Below, in pieces: positions 43,651 to 50,408 of a DNA stretch of 64,000 nt. Positions within the stretch are counted from its first letter, which is position 1. Each line of letters opens with the position of its first letter. The position numbers and the translations under genes were made by a program. The DNA comes from Streptomyces puniciscabiei (lineage in GTDB: Bacteria > Actinomycetota > Actinomycetes > Streptomycetales > Streptomycetaceae), in assembly GCF_006715785.1 (NCBI RefSeq), contig NZ_VFNX01000001.1:1812501-1876500 (forward strand), in the 5' to 3' direction. The notes beneath the pieces are model-generated. The model saw only the letters and a list, made by a program, of their open reading frames with translations. It did no database searches and was not told the DNA's origin.

Positions 43651-44829
43651 TCAGTAGACCGGCTTGTGCGGTTCGATCTGGTTGACCCAGCCGATGACGC
43701 CGCCGCCGACGTGCACGGCGTCGGCGAAGCCCGCGGACTTCAGGACGGCGAGGACTTCCGCACTGCGGACACCCGTCTTGCAGTGCAGGACGATCTTCTT
43801 GTCCTGCGGGAGGCCCTCCAGGGCGGTGCCCATGAGGAACTCGTTCTTCGGGATCAGCCGGGCGCCCGGGATGGAGACGATCTCGTACTCGTTCGGCTCG
43901 CGGACGTCGATGATCTCGATGTTCTCGCCCTCGTCGATCCACTCCTTGAGCTGCTTCGGAGTGATCGTGGAGTCGGCGGCGGCCGCCTGGGCCTCCTCGG
44001 ACACGACGCCGCAGAAGGCCTCGTAGTCGATGAGCTCGGTGACGGTGGGGTTCTCGCCGCAGACCGCGCAGTTCGGGTCCTTGCGGACCTTGACCTGGCG
44101 GTACGTCATCTCCAGGGCGTCATAGATCATCAGGCGGCCGACCAGCGGCTCGCCGATGCCCGCGAGGAGCTTGATGGCCTCGTTGACCTGGATGGAGCCG
44201 ATGGACGCGCAGAGCACGCCCAGGACGCCGCCCTCGGCGCAGGAGGGGACCATGCCGGGCGGCGGGGGCTCCGGGTAGAGGCAGCGGTAGCAGGGGCCGT
44301 GCTCGGACCAGAAGACGGAGGCCTGGCCGTCGAAGCGGTAGATCGACCCCCACACGTACGGCTTGTTCAGCAGCACGCAGGCGTCGTTGACCAGGTAGCG
44401 CGTCGCGAAGTTGTCGGTGCCGTCGATGATCAGGTCGTACTGGCTGAACAGGTCCATCACGTTGTCGGCCTCGAGCCGCTCCTCGTGCAGGACCACGTTC
44501 ACGTACGGGTTGATGCCCTTGACGGTGTCGCGGGCGGACTCGGCCTTGGAGCGGCCGATGTCGGACTGGCTGTGGATGATCTGGCGCTGCAGGTTCGACT
44601 CGTCGACCTCGTCGAACTCCACGATGCCGAGCGTGCCCACGCCCGCGGCGGCCAGGTACATCAGCGCCGGCGAGCCCAGGCCGCCGGCGCCCACACAGAG
44701 CACCTTGGCGTTCTTCAGCCGCTTCTGCCCGTCCATGCCCACGTCGGGGATGATCAGGTGGCGGGAGTACCTGCGGACCTCGTCTACGGTGAGCTCAGAA
44801 GCCGGCTCGACCAGGGGTGGCAGCGACAC
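43651..44829 (-). CDS. moeZ: Adenylyltransferase/sulfurtransferase MoeZ
   Basis: A 392-aa two-domain protein. The N-terminal E1-like domain (GAGGLGSPALMYLAAAG, then CYRCLYPEPPPPG and zinc CxxC pairs) adenylates the C-terminal Gly of a small sulfur carrier. The C-terminal rhodanese domain carries the active Cys in HCKTGVRS and transfers sulfur. In actinomycetes MoeZ serves molybdopterin, cysteine and several thio-natural-product pathways. It starts at the GTG at 44829. Confidence 0.94.
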   Translation of the reverse strand: MSLPPLVEPASELTVDEVRRYSRHLIIPDVGMDGQKRLKNAKVLCVGAGGLGSPALMYLAAAGVGTLGIVEFDEVDESNLQRQIIHSQSDIGRSKAESARDTVKGINPYVNVVLHEERLEADNVMDLFSQYDLIIDGTDNFATRYLVNDACVLLNKPYVWGSIYRFDGQASVFWSEHGPCYRCLYPEPPPPGMVPSCAEGGVLGVLCASIGSIQVNEAIKLLAGIGEPLVGRLMIYDALEMTYRQVKVRKDPNCAVCGENPTVTELIDYEAFCGVVSEEAQAAAADSTITPKQLKEWIDEGENIEIIDVREPNEYEIVSIPGARLIPKNEFLMGTALEGLPQDKKIVLHCKTGVRSAEVLAVLKSAGFADAVHVGGGVIGWVNQIEPHKPVY

Positions 44830-44892: not shown

Positions 44893-45642
44893 TCATTCCG
44901 AGACACCTGTTCCGATACGCGAGACGATTTCGTCCCAGTAGCCGGGCATGGTCTCCCAGGGGTCGATGCGGCCACCGCGGTCCGTGCGGTCGGTGAAGTA
45001 GATCGTCGCCGCTCCCTGCCACCGGGCGATGCGCAGCGCCTCCTCCAGATGGCCGCGGGGCACTCCGTGCACGAAGTGGCAGAAGCGGTCCGGCGGATAG
45101 TCGGCGGTCCACTCGGCGACCTGCGACCAGCGGTAGTCGGACCAGGGGCCGGAGAAGGTCACGAGTTGGTCGGCGTTCTCCGCGTACCCGGGGTGCGGAT
45201 GGGTGCCGTGGCCGAGGACGATGTGGGCGGAGTCACTGATCATGCGGAGCGTGGTGACCGCGCGGCGCACCTCGGGGAGGGCGGTGCGGTCGGTGGGGCA
45301 GCGGTCCAGCAGGAAGCCGTCGACCCGGTACCAGTCGAGGTAGCGGTGGGCGTCGGAGAGCAGGTCGGCGAAGGCTCGGGCGCCATGGGTGAGGTCCAGG
45401 TGGCCGAGGACCCGGACGCCCGCACCGCGCAGCCGGCCCGCGGCCTCCAGGCAGTGCGGGTCCGGCCGGGTGCCCGGGCCGGCGGCCACGTTCAGGACGA
45501 CCCAGTCCAGCGGGATGCCCGGGCGGGCGAGCTCGGCCCACTGGGCGGGGGCGACGAGCGGGTGGGCATAGCCGGGGACGCCGATGGCGGTGCGCAGGCC
45601 GGTGCTCGTGGCGCCTGCTGTGGTGCTGGTCAGATGCGGCAT
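44893..45642 (-). CDS. Spherulin-4-like (GH135-related) protein
   Basis: A 249-aa TIM-barrel-type protein of the spherulation-specific family 4. Fungal Sph3 of this family hydrolyses galactosaminogalactan. Motifs seen are VPGYAHPL, VVLNVAAGPGT, YRVDGFLLDRC and ADQLVTFSGPW. Compared with the fungal enzyme as I recall it, the first catalytic Asp (DGFLLD) is kept, but the adjacent Glu is Arg and the later Glu of the FE motif is Ser. It has no signal peptide. GGAGG precedes the ATG at 45642, and it overlaps the epimerase gene by 13 bp. It is the last gene of a coupled operon. Confidence 0.8.
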   Translation of the reverse strand: MPHLTSTTAGATSTGLRTAIGVPGYAHPLVAPAQWAELARPGIPLDWVVLNVAAGPGTRPDPHCLEAAGRLRGAGVRVLGHLDLTHGARAFADLLSDAHRYLDWYRVDGFLLDRCPTDRTALPEVRRAVTTLRMISDSAHIVLGHGTHPHPGYAENADQLVTFSGPWSDYRWSQVAEWTADYPPDRFCHFVHGVPRGHLEEALRIARWQGAATIYFTDRTDRGGRIDPWETMPGYWDEIVSRIGTGVSE

Positions 45643-46589
45643 GCCGCCTCCATCCAGATGTCGGCGAGGGATTCCTCGAGGTTGATGCGGGGCCGCCAGC
45701 CGAGCCGGTCGCGGGCGGTGCGCACGTCGGCCTGCTGCCAGCTGCCGCAGCCGTCCGGGTACGGGTACGCTGCCGGGGCCGCGTGGTCGGAGTCGGCGCG
45801 GGGGTGGCCGATCGCGCCGCGCAACGGTCCGGGCGGGGCGTCGAGTTCGTGCAGGGCGCCGCCGTATCCGGCCACGCGTGCGAGGACGGCGGCGGCGTCG
45901 CGGAGGCGGACGGCGCGGCCGGAGCCGATGTTGATGACGCCCTGGGCGGCGGAGAGCGAGGCGGCGTGCACGGCGCGGGCGACGTCGCGTACGTCGACGA
46001 AGTCGCGCTGCACACCGAGGCCGCCGAGCTTGAGCTCGCCGTCGCCGGACTGCATCGCGCGCCGCATCGCCTCGGCGAGCCGGCCCAGCGGGGAGCCGGC
46101 CGGGGTGCCCGGCCCTGCCGGGGAGAAGACCCGCAGCACGACGGCGTCCAGTCCGGAGCCGAGGACCAGTTCGGTCGCGGCGAGCTTGCTCACACCGTAC
46201 GGGCCGCCGGGGCGCGGTACGGCGTCCTCGGCGGTGGAGGAGCCGGGCTGGCTCGGCCCGTACTCGGCGCTGCACCCGATCTGCACCAGACGGGCCCCGC
46301 AGCCGCTGCGGCGCAGGGCCTCGCAGACGGTGGCGACGGCAACGGTGTTGTGCCGGGTCAGATCGCGGGCGCCGCCGCGGATGGCGCCGGCGCAGTTGAT
46401 GACGACCCCGGGGTGGACCGCGTCGAGGAAGCGGGTGAGGGCGCCGGGGCTGCCGGTGGCGAGGTCGAAGCGGACGTCGGCGTCGTCGCCGCGGCCTAGT
46501 GCGGTGAGCTGGACGGCCGGGTCGGCGAGCAGACGGTCGGCGACGAAGCGGCCGATGTATCCGTTGGCTCCGATCAGCAGGACCCTCAT
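45630..46589 (-). CDS. NAD-dependent sugar epimerase/dehydratase (extended SDR)
   Basis: A 319-aa extended SDR. GANGYIGRF binds NAD, IGCSAEYGPS holds the catalytic Ser/Thr region, and YGVSK gives Tyr and Lys of YxxxK. RDFVDVRDVARAVH and the C-terminal region fit nucleotide-sugar 4-epimerases or reductases. Its ATG overlaps the stop of the 66-aa ORF (ATGA), and its 3' end overlaps the spherulin-4 gene. In this operon a UDP-N-acetylhexosamine or UDP-glucose C4-epimerase role is the best guess. Confidence 0.82.
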   Translation of the reverse strand: MRVLLIGANGYIGRFVADRLLADPAVQLTALGRGDDADVRFDLATGSPGALTRFLDAVHPGVVINCAGAIRGGARDLTRHNTVAVATVCEALRRSGCGARLVQIGCSAEYGPSQPGSSTAEDAVPRPGGPYGVSKLAATELVLGSGLDAVVLRVFSPAGPGTPAGSPLGRLAEAMRRAMQSGDGELKLGGLGVQRDFVDVRDVARAVHAASLSAAQGVINIGSGRAVRLRDAAAVLARVAGYGGALHELDAPPGPLRGAIGHPRADSDHAAPAAYPYPDGCGSWQQADVRTARDRLGWRPRINLEESLADIWMEAACRI

Positions 46590-46786
46590 CGGGCGACTCC
46601 GGGGGTGTCGGCGCCGGCGTGACCGGCGGGGCCGAGGTGACTGACGGTACGAAGGTGGCCGAGGGGGCCATTGGGTGCTGCGTGCCAAGAGGGTGTGCTG
46701 GGCCGAGAGGGTGCGGTGGGCCCGCCCGCGCTTGCGGTGCCGGCGGCCCCGGGGGCACCGGACGCTCCGGGTCGGGAGGTGGTCAT
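46586..46786 (-). CDS. 66-aa low-complexity ORF in the exopolysaccharide-type operon
   Basis: AAGGAGAA lies 8 nt before the ATG at 46786, the strongest ribosome binding site in this operon, and the stop overlaps the epimerase start (ATGA). The peptide begins MTTSRPGASGAPGAAGTASA and is rich in Gly, Ala, Pro, Ser and His. No helix, signal or motif is visible. A run of seven T stands just upstream of the ribosome binding site. It may exist mainly to couple translation into the epimerase gene. Confidence 0.6.
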   Translation of the reverse strand: MTTSRPGASGAPGAAGTASAGGPTAPSRPSTPSWHAAPNGPLGHLRTVSHLGPAGHAGADTPGVAR

Positions 46787-46857
46787 CTGGCGTTCTCCTT
46801 CAAAAAAAGGGGTGGTGCGGTCGCCTCCGGCTGCGGTTCGGGCCGGCGGCGGCAGAT

Positions 46858-48708
46858 TCAGTCGGGAGCCCCCGTGGGAGCGTGTGCCGAGGCCCGGGTG
46901 AGGGTGCGGCCGGCGTGGCACAACAGGGCCAGCGCGGCCGTGCCGCAGGCGAGGACCGGGACGGCGGCCTCGCCCCAGGTGTCCAGAAGCGTCCTTACGG
47001 GCGCCGCCAGGACGGCACAGCCCGGCAGCCTCCCGGCCGACGGCAGGGCGAGGGCGACGGCCTCCATGGCCACAGCGGCACCGAGCGCCACGGCCGGGGC
47101 GTGCCGGTGCCCGTGCACGGTGAGCAGGCGGGCGAGGAGCAGCAGGGCACCGAGGGCGAGGGTCTGCGGGTAGGCCACGGGTTCGTGCAGTACGGCGCCG
47201 CAGACCAGGAGCAGGGCGGTGAGCACGCCCAGAAACACGGTGAACGTGCCGAACAGCAACGGCTTGGCGGCGGCCGTGAAGTCCTCGAGGCCCCGGCTGC
47301 CGGCGAGCCTGCGGCGGGCGCCCGCGCTGAGCAGGTGGGCGCACCAGGCCGCCGGGGCACAGGCCAGGATCAGGGCCAAGGTGGGCGCGACGGCCGTGGG
47401 CCAGGGGCCGTCCGGGGCGCCGGTCGGCAGGGCGTCGGGGCCACCGGTCACGACGGCATGGAGGAGGCCGTCGCCGAGGAGGGCGTAGCCGAGCAGCCAC
47501 AGGGTCCACGCACGCGTGCCGTTCGCCGTACGCCATGCGTGCGTGCCGGGCGGGCTGGCTAGGGGGCCGTGGCGCAGTGCGGTACGCGTGGCCAGGGCCA
47601 TGGCGATGATGCCGACGACGGCGGTCAGGAGGCGGGGCTGTCCGTGGGTCAGGCGCAGTCCGGCCACGGTGGCCGCGCCGAGCGCGCCGGGCAGGAGGGT
47701 GAGCAGGATCCAGACCGCGCGCACCCGGGGCACGGGCAGGGGCTCGGACTGCGGGACCTGCTCGCCGGTGCGGGGCACGCGCGCGTACAGCTCCTCGGCG
47801 AGCGAGAAGACATCGCGGTGGCGGAAGCGGGCGGCGGTCCGGTCGGTGACGCCGTGCGCCTCCAGCCCGGCGGCGATCTCCAAGGGGTCCACGGCCCGCT
47901 CGCACAGCTCGCGGTGCCGGTGCAGCAGGGCTTTCACGGGGTCCGCGGCGCCCCGCCGGGGTGCGGCCACGCGCCTCGTGCCCGACTCGCCCTTGCCGGA
48001 GGGTGGGTTGTCCGGCGGCGAGTCGGCCGATCCCGCCCGAGTGGCCGCGGCGACCGCTCCGGGACGGCCCGGCCGCCCGGTCGGCTGGACGGCACCGGCG
48101 GGGCCTCGCGCACCGGCGACGGTGGCGGACGGCGCCGACGAGGTCTCCCAGGACCCGGCGTCCTGACCGCCCGGCTCCGCCTCGAACCACTCCCCCGACT
48201 GCGCGTCCTCCCAAGGCTCGGCCGTACTGGGCATCCCGGGTCGGTCCAGCCCGCCCGGAGCGCTCACCGCGCGGCGACTGTCATCGTGAGCCCCCGGCAC
48301 GACAGCCGAACGCGAGCCCTCCGCCCCGCCCGGCCCGCCGGCGCCCAGCGCGCCCGCCTCCCCCGGCATCGCTGCGGCCGAACCCGGGTACTCCGTCTCT
48401 CCGGACACCCCAGTACGCCGCGCTCCCGGCCCGCTCAGCGCTTCCGGTGCCTCAGCAGCCGGACTCGGGTCATCCGCCTCGGTAGGCATCCCACTGCCCC
48501 GCCGGCCCAGGCCACCCGGTGCCTCCGGCGCCCAGACGGCCGACCCGGCGTCCCCCGATCCGCCCGGCGCTCCCGTGCTCAGCGGCCGGAGGTCGCCCGG
48601 CGCGCCCCGTTCGCTCACCTCGGCCGCCGCCCAAGTGCGGTCTCCGCCCGCGCGGTCCGCCATCGCTCCGGCGCGGTCTGCGCTCATGCCGTCGTCACGT
48701 GTGTCCAT
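46858..48708 (-). CDS. Polytopic membrane protein of the glycosyltransferase operon
   Basis: A 616-aa protein. The first 230 residues are disordered and rich in Gly, Ala, Pro and Glu. A soluble segment (about 250-320, with HRHRELCERAVDPLEIAAGLEAHG) precedes about eight transmembrane helices up to the C-terminus. I do not recognise a family; it is not an obvious MOP flippase. Its start overlaps the stop of the glycosyltransferase gene (TGATG; a GTG one codon earlier is possible). The context suggests a polymerisation or export membrane partner. Confidence 0.72.
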   Translation of the reverse strand: MDTRDDGMSADRAGAMADRAGGDRTWAAAEVSERGAPGDLRPLSTGAPGGSGDAGSAVWAPEAPGGLGRRGSGMPTEADDPSPAAEAPEALSGPGARRTGVSGETEYPGSAAAMPGEAGALGAGGPGGAEGSRSAVVPGAHDDSRRAVSAPGGLDRPGMPSTAEPWEDAQSGEWFEAEPGGQDAGSWETSSAPSATVAGARGPAGAVQPTGRPGRPGAVAAATRAGSADSPPDNPPSGKGESGTRRVAAPRRGAADPVKALLHRHRELCERAVDPLEIAAGLEAHGVTDRTAARFRHRDVFSLAEELYARVPRTGEQVPQSEPLPVPRVRAVWILLTLLPGALGAATVAGLRLTHGQPRLLTAVVGIIAMALATRTALRHGPLASPPGTHAWRTANGTRAWTLWLLGYALLGDGLLHAVVTGGPDALPTGAPDGPWPTAVAPTLALILACAPAAWCAHLLSAGARRRLAGSRGLEDFTAAAKPLLFGTFTVFLGVLTALLLVCGAVLHEPVAYPQTLALGALLLLARLLTVHGHRHAPAVALGAAVAMEAVALALPSAGRLPGCAVLAAPVRTLLDTWGEAAVPVLACGTAALALLCHAGRTLTRASAHAPTGAPD

Positions 48709-50408
48709 CACGCCCCCTCGGCGGCGGCCAGTCGTGTCGCGCGTACCGCTGGGGCCGTGACCCAGCCGGGGACGCTCCGGGGCAGGACACGGGCCGTGGG
48801 GCCGGTCCAGCGGCCGGGGACGTGGGACTCGGCGGGGGTGGCGAACGGCAGGGGCTCGCCGGCCTCGTCGAGGACGACCCGGCGCACCGGGCAGTGCGCG
48901 ACGATCTGCAGGTAAATGCCGTGAAATGCCGCGATGTTCTGCTCGACGGTGAACAGTTCGAGTGCACGGGCGCGTGCGGCGGCGCCGAGGCGCTCACGAC
49001 GCTCGGGGTCGCGCAGCAGCGCCACGCACGCCTCGGCGAGCGCCCGCGGATTGCGCGGGGGCACGACGAGCCCGGTGCCGCCGATGACCTCCACCACCGC
49101 GCCGACGTCGGTGGACACCGTGGCCCGGCCGCAGAACATGGCCTCGATCAGGCCGACGGGGAAGCCCTCGACGACGCTGGAGAGGACGACGACCGCTCCC
49201 GCGGCGTACGCCTCGGCCAGTGTGGGGGCCTCCGGGCCGCCGATCTCCTCGAAGGAGACCGGGTTGTCGCCGACGGCGTGCACGCCCTCCGCCTCGTCCG
49301 GGAAGAGCTGCGCGGCGAGTGCCCGGCAGTGGCCGAGGTAGGCCGCGCCCTCGGGCCCGGAGGGCGCGCCGACGATCCGGAGACGCGCCTTGGGCTCCTC
49401 CTTGCGGACCTCGGCGAAGGCGTGCAGCAGCGAGATCAGGTCCTTGGCGGGTTCGACGCGCCCGACCCAGGCCAGAGTGCCGGGCTCGGCGCGGTCCGGG
49501 GCCTCGCCGACCTCCGCGAAGCGGGTGGCGTCCATGCCCGGGTAGACCGTGCGGATCCGGGCGCGGTCGGCGCCGCACCGCTCCTGCCAGCGACGGGCGT
49601 GGGCGTTGCCGGGGGTGAGGACCTCGGCGCGCCGGTAGACCTCGGCGGCGAGCCGGCCCTGGTAGGCGGCGAGCAGCGCGCGTACGGCGGGGGGCGTGGT
49701 GTCGGGGCCGAGGGCCAGGTAGTGCGAGCGGAGCTGCACGCCGTACTCGGTGACGAGCAGCGGCACGTCGCAGAAGTGCCGGGCGAGCAGCCCGGGGAGG
49801 GCCGCGGGGCCGCCGGCGGCGGCGTGGCAGAGGTCGGCCGCGCCGAGGCCGTCGTCGCCGTACCAGTCGAGGGAGAGGGGGCGCAGGGCGCGTTCGAGGT
49901 GTGCGGTGACGGTGAGCAGGTCGGGTACGCGCGCCTCGCGCGCCGTGCGCAGTGCGCCGGGGGCGCGGCAGGCGCGTTCGAGGGTGCGTACGGCGGCGTC
50001 CGAGCGCAGGGCGCCGACCAGGCCGCCCTCGTCCCTGGCGAGTTCGGCGAGTCCGTACAGGGCGCTGCCGAAACGGTCCGCCAGATCGGTGGGCATCTCC
50101 TCGGAGGCGGCTCCGGGACCGGCGCACACGGCGGCGAGCAATTCTCCGTAGCACTCGGTGAAGCGCCGTCGCGCGCGCCGTGAGTAGGTGACCCCGTCGT
50201 CCTCGGCCGTCCACAGCGGCGCCGTACGCACCCGGCTGACCTGTGGTGGGAGCGGGACCCAGCCGTCGTCCTCCTGGCGCCGGCTGCGGCTGAGCGCGTA
50301 GATGTCGAACTCATGCTGGTCGAGCCCGCGCACGAGCCGGTCGCACCAGAGTCCGGCGTCACCGCTCACATACGGGTAGCCACCTTCCGTAAGCAGTCCG
50401 ATGCGCAC
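48708..50408 (-). CDS. PelF-like GT4 glycosyltransferase
   Basis: A 566-aa glycosyltransferase. The N-terminus MRIGLLTEGGYPYVSGDAG is typical of the DUF3492/PelF type that begins exopolysaccharide synthesis from UDP-sugars. The C-terminal GT-B half has a nucleotide-binding VGRVEPAKDLISLLHAF and the EX7E motif in EGFPVGLIEAMFCG, marks of retaining GT4 enzymes. No membrane segment. It heads a five-gene operon. The ATG at 50408 starts the operon, and the upstream gap to 50605 holds a terminator hairpin and presumably the promoter. Confidence 0.85.
   Translation of the reverse strand: MRIGLLTEGGYPYVSGDAGLWCDRLVRGLDQHEFDIYALSRSRRQEDDGWVPLPPQVSRVRTAPLWTAEDDGVTYSRRARRRFTECYGELLAAVCAGPGAASEEMPTDLADRFGSALYGLAELARDEGGLVGALRSDAAVRTLERACRAPGALRTAREARVPDLLTVTAHLERALRPLSLDWYGDDGLGAADLCHAAAGGPAALPGLLARHFCDVPLLVTEYGVQLRSHYLALGPDTTPPAVRALLAAYQGRLAAEVYRRAEVLTPGNAHARRWQERCGADRARIRTVYPGMDATRFAEVGEAPDRAEPGTLAWVGRVEPAKDLISLLHAFAEVRKEEPKARLRIVGAPSGPEGAAYLGHCRALAAQLFPDEAEGVHAVGDNPVSFEEIGGPEAPTLAEAYAAGAVVVLSSVVEGFPVGLIEAMFCGRATVSTDVGAVVEVIGGTGLVVPPRNPRALAEACVALLRDPERRERLGAAARARALELFTVEQNIAAFHGIYLQIVAHCPVRRVVLDEAGEPLPFATPAESHVPGRWTGPTARVLPRSVPGWVTAPAVRATRLAAAEGA

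Follow-up and report, generated by a model that had tools for sequence, protein, structure and literature searches.

Does the five-gene operon that lies beside a moeZ-like gene in Streptomyces puniciscabiei still build an exopolysaccharide, or has it taken on a different role? The window analysed here is the whole 64,000-nucleotide stretch of contig NZ_VFNX01000001.1 (positions 1,812,501 to 1,876,500). At positions 44893-50408, it holds five open reading frames (ORFs), all on the minus strand, encoding a PelF-like GT4 glycosyltransferase, a polytopic membrane protein, a 66-codon leader, an extended short-chain dehydrogenase/reductase (SDR) resembling NDP-sugar epimerases and 4-ketoreductases, and a GH135 (spherulin-4-like) protein. 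An original prediction, made from the sequence alone, had described this single-strand layout, with its TGATG, ATGA and 13-base overlaps, and the coordinates in the window reproduce it. The prediction took the operon for a minimal Pel/galactosaminogalactan (GAG) locus that makes or remodels a galactosamine-type polymer. The reading that we favour, with a probability of about 0.6, is that the operon instead descends from a complete bacterial GAG-type operon, from which it differs by gene loss and catalytic remodelling, and that its function has changed.

The gene families themselves are those that had been named. Pfam profiles gave 103.5 bits for DUF3492, 86.8 for Glyco_trans_1_4, 130.7 for Epimerase and 84.2 for Spherulin4 (cut-off 30.2), which bears out the spherulin-4-like assignment. 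The PelF-like assignment also stands, narrowly, as the NCBIfam PelF score of the glycosyltransferase (105.3, cut-off 100) is barely a pass and is split over two stretches.

The descent of the operon can be followed at the moeZ locus itself. In one genome of another genus of the same family (G359, genus g132), this locus contains the full set of CE18 deacetylase, GT4, membrane protein, dehydratase, nucleotidyltransferase, SDR, GH135 and GH114 genes, separated from moeZ by a single gene on the opposite strand. The GGVS and TEHG motifs of its GT4, the catalytic Ser of its SDR and the Asp/Glu pair of its GH135 protein are intact. In the GH135 tree, drawn with a midpoint root, the G359 copy falls inside the moeZ-linked clade of 26 sequences (100/97) and outside the other 25 (94/83), with the copies from paralogous operons outside the clade. 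In the SDR tree, from which LegB-type rows were left out, a long branch separates 16 copies from paralogous operons (100/99). Neither tree includes L129, as it is a partial duplicate of L157. Because a full and intact set is found at moeZ with the first-branching GH135 copy, the window copy is best explained as a reduced descendant. Sequence comparison, thus, supports common descent with full GAG/Agd3-type operons, and reduction in place of a full operon at moeZ is the simplest reading. Two further genomes show other combinations: G367 keeps the GH135 Glu and the SDR Ser with the GT4 GG loop lost and no CE18 gene within the 16 kb read, and G354 has only the SDR and GH135 genes, with Asp in place of Glu. 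The ancestor, in an early streptomycete, would have carried at moeZ a CE18 deacetylase, a PelF-like GT4, a MOP-type membrane protein, a LegB-type dehydratase, a nucleotidyltransferase, an SDR, a GH135 and a GH114 protein. Compared with that set, the window lacks four of eight genes, the GH135 Glu and the GT4 GG loop; its SDR has Cys instead of Ser, and its membrane protein is shorter.

Fuller operons of two types were found in the neighbourhoods of paralogs in Streptomyces and other actinobacteria. Type A has the order CE18-GT4-membrane protein-dehydratase-nucleotidyltransferase-SDR-GH135, often with a GH114 gene, and type B consists of CE18-GT4-membrane protein-GH135, with GH114 in two of five loci (L092, L100). 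The first protein of both types (cluster c7) is assigned by sequence to the Agd3-like CE18 deacetylases: the L102 copy scores 53.4 bits with CBM87_Agd3 and 43.4 bits with Agd3_CE (both above the cut-off of 27.6), and the Streptomyces copy of L092, with 18.2 bits for Agd3_CE and so below the cut-off, belongs to the family through sequence clustering. The GH114 protein (cluster c16, 290.6 bits) matches 6oj1, the structure of Ega3, at 5.7e-55. With these two predicted enzymes, the paralogous operons have the complete GAG set, which bears out the proposed kinship of the locus to Pel-type loci and to the fungal GAG cluster, through which moulds produce a sticky galactosamine polymer. According to passages of PMC7229062 (Nat Commun 2020), bacterial agd3 operons encode a glycosyltransferase and a multi-spanning membrane protein, mostly with GH114, and some actinobacterial ones include spherulin-4; types A and B are, in outline, operons of this Agd3-type kind already in print. 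Type A operons (L097:7363-10044, L094:8518-11154) also have, next to the SDR gene, genes for a sugar-1-phosphate nucleotidyltransferase and a LegB-like 4,6-dehydratase (446.7 bits in L097; cut-off 475, not reached). This suggests that the polymer, or something close to it, contains a 6-deoxy sugar, and not GalNAc and Gal alone.

The GH135 protein has lost half of its catalytic pair. When it is aligned with Sph3 (5c5g, 5d6t), the Asp of FFDE corresponds to window Asp113 and the Glu of VFE to window Ser164; hence, the residue at the nucleophile position is kept and the acid/base Glu is replaced. The two sites are 56 residues apart in Sph3, a spacing that fits Asp166 and Glu222, which we take to be the catalytic pair (a published passage prints Asp196/Glu222). 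Among 135 close copies, comprising the window, 120 database proteins (the best of 1,296 matches) and 14 loci, the Glu is present in none (108 Ser, 15 Ala, 5 Arg, 3 Cys, 3 Thr and 1 Gln), whereas 112 retain Asp113; in the full operons, both residues occur in 19 out of 19 copies. A wider check found Glu in two out of 11 moeZ-linked copies (L124, L129) and Asp in one (L128), and Glu in none of three new copies (L179-L181). It was also missing from all 60 copies of the named loci, two of which are partial genes gapped at this position; these named loci are 80 in total, the best 80 of at least 568 in the SDR alignment. The protein is nevertheless constrained, with conservation of 97% or more at 104 of 249 columns, in a set made up largely of close relatives, and a median ratio of nonsynonymous to synonymous rates (dN/dS) of 0.37. 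We calculated dN/dS by the Nei-Gojobori method with Jukes-Cantor correction and used it only for comparisons between genes, because the genes are very GC-rich. No hydrophobic stretch above the threshold used was present in the window protein. The bacterial GH135 proteins (L097:10041-10703, L092:11844-12506, window 44893-45642) show no apparent signal sequence ahead of the barrel, with which they begin, and may be intracellular; fungal Sph3 is described with a transmembrane domain in passages of PMC11356417. Public names of close relatives include 'Phage tail protein', which looks like a misannotation.

The glycosyltransferase has changed elsewhere. The GG loop, which is important in GT4 glycosyltransferases, is gone from the window copy, where residues 16-19 read GDAG at the place of the expected GGVS, and Tyr222 stands for the His of TEHG. 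Its donor side is complete (R317, K322, E414 and E422, that is R, K and Ex7E). The roles of the Lys and both Glu were assigned by correspondence with MshA and PimA, since His133, Lys236, Glu316 and Glu324 of MshA, with their PimA counterparts, are substrate-binding residues in passages of PMC4506291. In a set of 138 copies, dominated by the 120 best of 3,251 matches, R317 and K322 are each found in 135, E414 in 137 and E422 in 136, G[DE]xx replaces GGVS, and 135 have Tyr at the His222 position. Some relatives are publicly named D-inositol 3-phosphate glycosyltransferase, apparently another misannotation.

In the Kitasatospora and Streptacidiphilus copies sampled, the donor side of this enzyme has been lost too. 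R317, K322 and E414 are replaced in 12 out of 12 Streptacidiphilus copies, and K322, E414 and E422 in nine out of nine Kitasatospora copies, eight of which also lack R317. These frames are still open, with median dN/dS values of 0.45 and 0.41, respectively, close to the 0.41 of Streptomyces, and Pfam GT4 domains were detected in all four scanned copies without the donor residues from these genera. Such genes are what would be expected if the glycosyltransferase, membrane protein and GH135 protein made no polymer and had been repurposed for sensing, scaffolding or regulation through the binding of glycans or sugar nucleotides, and the conservation of GH135 in Streptomyces despite its lost acid/base Glu fits as well. 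However, most Streptomyces copies of GT4 have an intact donor site and no regulatory partner was identified, so we consider this explanation unlikely. The two patterns can also be taken together: lineages would have disabled different catalysts, the hydrolase in Streptomyces and the transferase in Kitasatospora and Streptacidiphilus, and kept the proteins, which would favour binding, sensing or scaffolding over synthesis. We put forward only tentatively, as a rather doubtful extension, that in the Streptomycetaceae a biofilm-polysaccharide synthase operon was converted in place, leaving a single live SDR surrounded by conserved pseudoenzymes.

The membrane protein had been described as matching no familiar family, which is true of the profile searches, as no Pfam family matched at E 0.01 and no NCBIfam family at E 0.1; it does, however, correspond to the MOP-fold protein of the full operons. 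Its identity as PelG was rejected, since PF16933 left it unmatched and reached at best 25.5 bits in the genome, over a 118-position piece elsewhere (cut-off 29). The first ~250 residues are of low complexity and variable in length (the protein has 256-553 amino acids in 17 relatives, as called outside the window by a codon-model gene caller with approximate starts). From about residue 250, a conserved small helical domain is followed by a MOP-like bundle shorter than that of the paralogs: over the modelled part, the window protein has 370 residues and a paralog 429, that is 59 fewer. A Foldseek search with the window model gave no match at 1e-3. Judging from the models, the window protein resembles a shortened MOP-fold flippase and would be the counterpart of the protein in full operons. 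The previously unassigned membrane protein of GAG-like operons in actinobacteria gains a probable identity as a MOP-type flippase.

The SDR appears to be the most constrained component. The window copy retains GxxGxxG and Y131xxxK135, with Cys106 at the catalytic Ser position. Tyr and Lys are kept in 18 out of 18 copies compared, all 18 of which have Cys, compared with Ser in 10 out of 10 copies from full operons (EPI-labelled rows below 36% identity, which are LegB-type dehydratases, were left out of the comparison with type A and B copies). Four of the five solved relatives shown have Ser at this position; the fifth, 6wj9, has Ala, together with Phe for Tyr, and seems to be an inactivated version of 6wjb. 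Both structures, taken here to be PelX, are labelled only as epimerase/dehydratase family proteins. Two other solved relatives rank above them as the best, one a GDP-6-deoxy-D-lyxo-4-hexulose reductase and the other a GDP-6-deoxy-D-mannose reductase, which weakens the proposed C4-epimerase reading. As these are GDP-4-keto-6-deoxyhexose-type reductases, and as type A operons pair the SDR with a LegB-like dehydratase and a nucleotidyltransferase, the enzyme perhaps acts by 4-keto reduction. Its dN/dS values (0.06 and 0.26) indicate stronger constraint than on GT4.

The finishing enzymes of the full operons are missing from the window genome. The original prediction of a locus without a deacetylase gene was borne out, with none among the Pfam matches or the neighbourhood genes; beyond the locus, one Streptomyces CE18 protein used as a query found no match in the window genome and matched 12 out of 28 Streptomyces. 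The CBM87 (Agd3) model also found nothing there, which adds little, because it is blind to most CE18 copies (one out of 28 Streptomyces, below its cut-off). There was no GH114 match at 1e-10 and no LegB-type dehydratase match at 1e-80, and a general Pfam scan, which was not aimed at PelD or PelE, found no cyclic di-GMP domains of their type in the five proteins. That the operon still functions as a minimal Pel/GAG locus, making or remodelling an exopolysaccharide of galactosamine type, would agree with the gene families, the intact GT4 donor residues of the window and the conservation of the operon in Streptomyces. This reading is very unlikely given that the acid/base Glu is missing from every close GH135 copy, the SDR Ser and the GT4 GG loop are lost, the membrane protein is shortened, the SDR is nearest to 4-ketoreductases, and the genome gave no CE18, GH114 or LegB-type match.

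The conservation anticipated for the gene set within the genus was found in a class-wide sample of 296 genomes, 28 of them Streptomyces. GT4 matches (E 1e-40 or better) occur in 28 out of 28 and GH135 matches in 26, one of which (G327) is only a 45% paralog; within 1.5-kb flanks, GH135 lies between the SDR match and moeZ in all 25 others, that is 25 out of 28. The remaining three (G203, G284, G327) have the order GT4-membrane protein-SDR-moeZ with GH135 absent from the locus. GH135 is present in 14 of the 17 Streptomyces moeZ loci besides the window, and 13 of these 14 share the 13-base overlap with the SDR. For the 57 named loci longer than 16 kb, 41 have the order GT4-membrane protein-SDR-GH135-moeZ, 15 lack GH135 and one is reduced to GT4-SDR-moeZ. 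GH135 was looked for and not found in the Kitasatospora and Streptacidiphilus moeZ loci. Eleven other genera contributed 20 moeZ loci, of which L150 and L151 retain the SDR alone and four, from two genera (g119, g122), have nothing left. At the GT4 place of L149 (9210-10335), about 1.1 kb ahead of the membrane protein gene is without a called gene and possibly represents a degraded GT4.

Stepwise loss of this kind, including that of GH135 in three of 28 Streptomyces, the emptied or SDR-only loci of other genera, the GT4 copies without donor residues and the raised dN/dS of the membrane protein, above that of the other genes with medians up to 0.78, would also follow from slow decay, in which selection acts only on the SDR, with moeZ as its neighbour, and the other three genes are eroding remnants. 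However, the frames are open, median dN/dS is well below 1 for GT4 (0.41-0.45) and GH135, and GH135 is highly conserved in its mostly closely related set, which leaves decay possible though doubtful.

Several points count against a remodelled descendant with a new function. Only a single genome is known to have the full operon at moeZ, and the SDR tree leaves the place of G359 among the deepest moeZ-linked branches unsettled. Ser for Glu in GH135 is not proof of inactivity, and Cys at the SDR Ser site may still be functional; moreover, 15 of the 80 named loci keep Ser there. His is kept in 11 of 46 named-locus GT4 copies with intact donor residues, and a near-universal His-to-Tyr change, seen in 135 out of 138 copies, was dropped as a claim. 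CE18 absence rests on one query, and the search did not extend to CE4 or further deacetylase families. The changed GT4 acceptor is an inference, and the loss or erosion of GT4 and the membrane protein in several genera is also compatible with decay.

Nonetheless, since the finishing enzymes and key catalytic residues are lost while the genes stay under selection, the remodelled operon probably has a different job today. The SDR, its most constrained part, would still be an active nucleotide-sugar enzyme; the Streptomyces GT4 would bind an NDP-sugar and transfer the sugar, at the membrane protein, to an acceptor that has changed; and the GH135 protein, if it acts at all, would be a non-cutting glycan-binding partner. 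No CE18-deacetylated galactosamine polymer would be produced. The locus offers an ordered phylogenetic series from a full GAG-type to a reduced operon at one fixed chromosomal site, and a clean test case of whether biofilm pseudo-hydrolases and pseudo-glycosyltransferases can be selected for non-catalytic roles. It also occurs throughout Streptomyces under annotations that would be misleading (PelF, spherulin hydrolase and even 'phage tail protein').

The 66-codon ORF matched no Pfam (E 0.01) or NCBIfam (E 0.1) family and, with a best tblastn E of 0.052, is not considered a small protein under conservation. In 73 of the 80 named loci, the start of the SDR gene was recognised, and 49 of these 73 have an ATG frame, preceded by a Shine-Dalgarno sequence, that ends on a TGA overlapping the SDR ATG; the other 24 do not, and each of the two other frames gives 0 out of 73 such starts. 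The ATGA overlap arises because the SDR begins Met-Arg (ATGAG). All but one of the 49 frames have 15-49 codons and one has 103. The window ORF appears to be a lengthened version of a short leader, conserved in position in most loci and not in sequence, and is likely a translational-coupling device of variable length. On its upstream side, the operon is flanked by a binding-protein-dependent ABC transporter with an SBP_bac_5 protein. Coordinates are given in Table 1.

Table 1. Features of the moeZ-linked operon and its downstream neighbour, in window coordinates
Feature	Positions	Strand	Basis or remark
GT4 (PelF/DUF3492-type) glycosyltransferase, 566 aa	48708..50408	-	Pfam/NCBIfam and residue alignment
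Polytopic membrane protein, 617 aa	46858..48711	-	TGATG junction with GT4
66-codon leader ORF	46586..46786	-	ATGA overlap with SDR start
Extended SDR (NDP-sugar epimerase/4-ketoreductase-like), 319 aa	45630..46589	-	Pfam, alignment, dN/dS
Cys106 codon, catalytic Ser/Thr position of extended SDRs	46272..46274	-	Alignment
GH135 (Spherulin4) protein, 249 aa	44893..45642	-	13-base overlap with SDR
Ser164 codon, Sph3 acid/base Glu position	45151..45153	-	Alignment with 5c5g/5d6t
moeZ-like gene (ThiF + Rhodanese), downstream neighbour	43651..44829	-	63-bp gap to GH135 gene

In the open-licence literature, we found no published description of the moeZ-linked reduced locus and no publication linking DUF3492 with Streptomyces. 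The operon shares with the fungal GAG cluster (uge3, gtb3, agd3, sph3, ega3) a GT4-type synthase, an NDP-sugar SDR and a GH135 protein, but it lacks CE18 and GH114, and its GH135 is without the acid/base Glu. One gene encodes its glycosyltransferase and another the membrane part; Gtb3, by contrast, is a single integral membrane glycosyltransferase in passages of PMC7229062. The paralogous bacterial operons, to which CE18 and GH114 are added, are nearer to the fungal cluster. The Agd3-type bacterial operons have agd3-like genes, mostly with GH114, and the passages of PMC7229062 on them do not describe a moeZ-linked reduced locus. With the Gram-positive pel operon pelDEADAFG, as presented in passages of PMC7112168, the window shares a PelF-family GT4, and altered SDR domains are reported for that operon as well, in PelD. 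In the window, the membrane protein has no PelG match and the locus has no deacetylase gene. As regards differences from MOP superfamily flippases (MATE, MurJ, WzxE), the window protein is shorter than its paralog over the modelled part, and both have an extra N-terminal helical domain.

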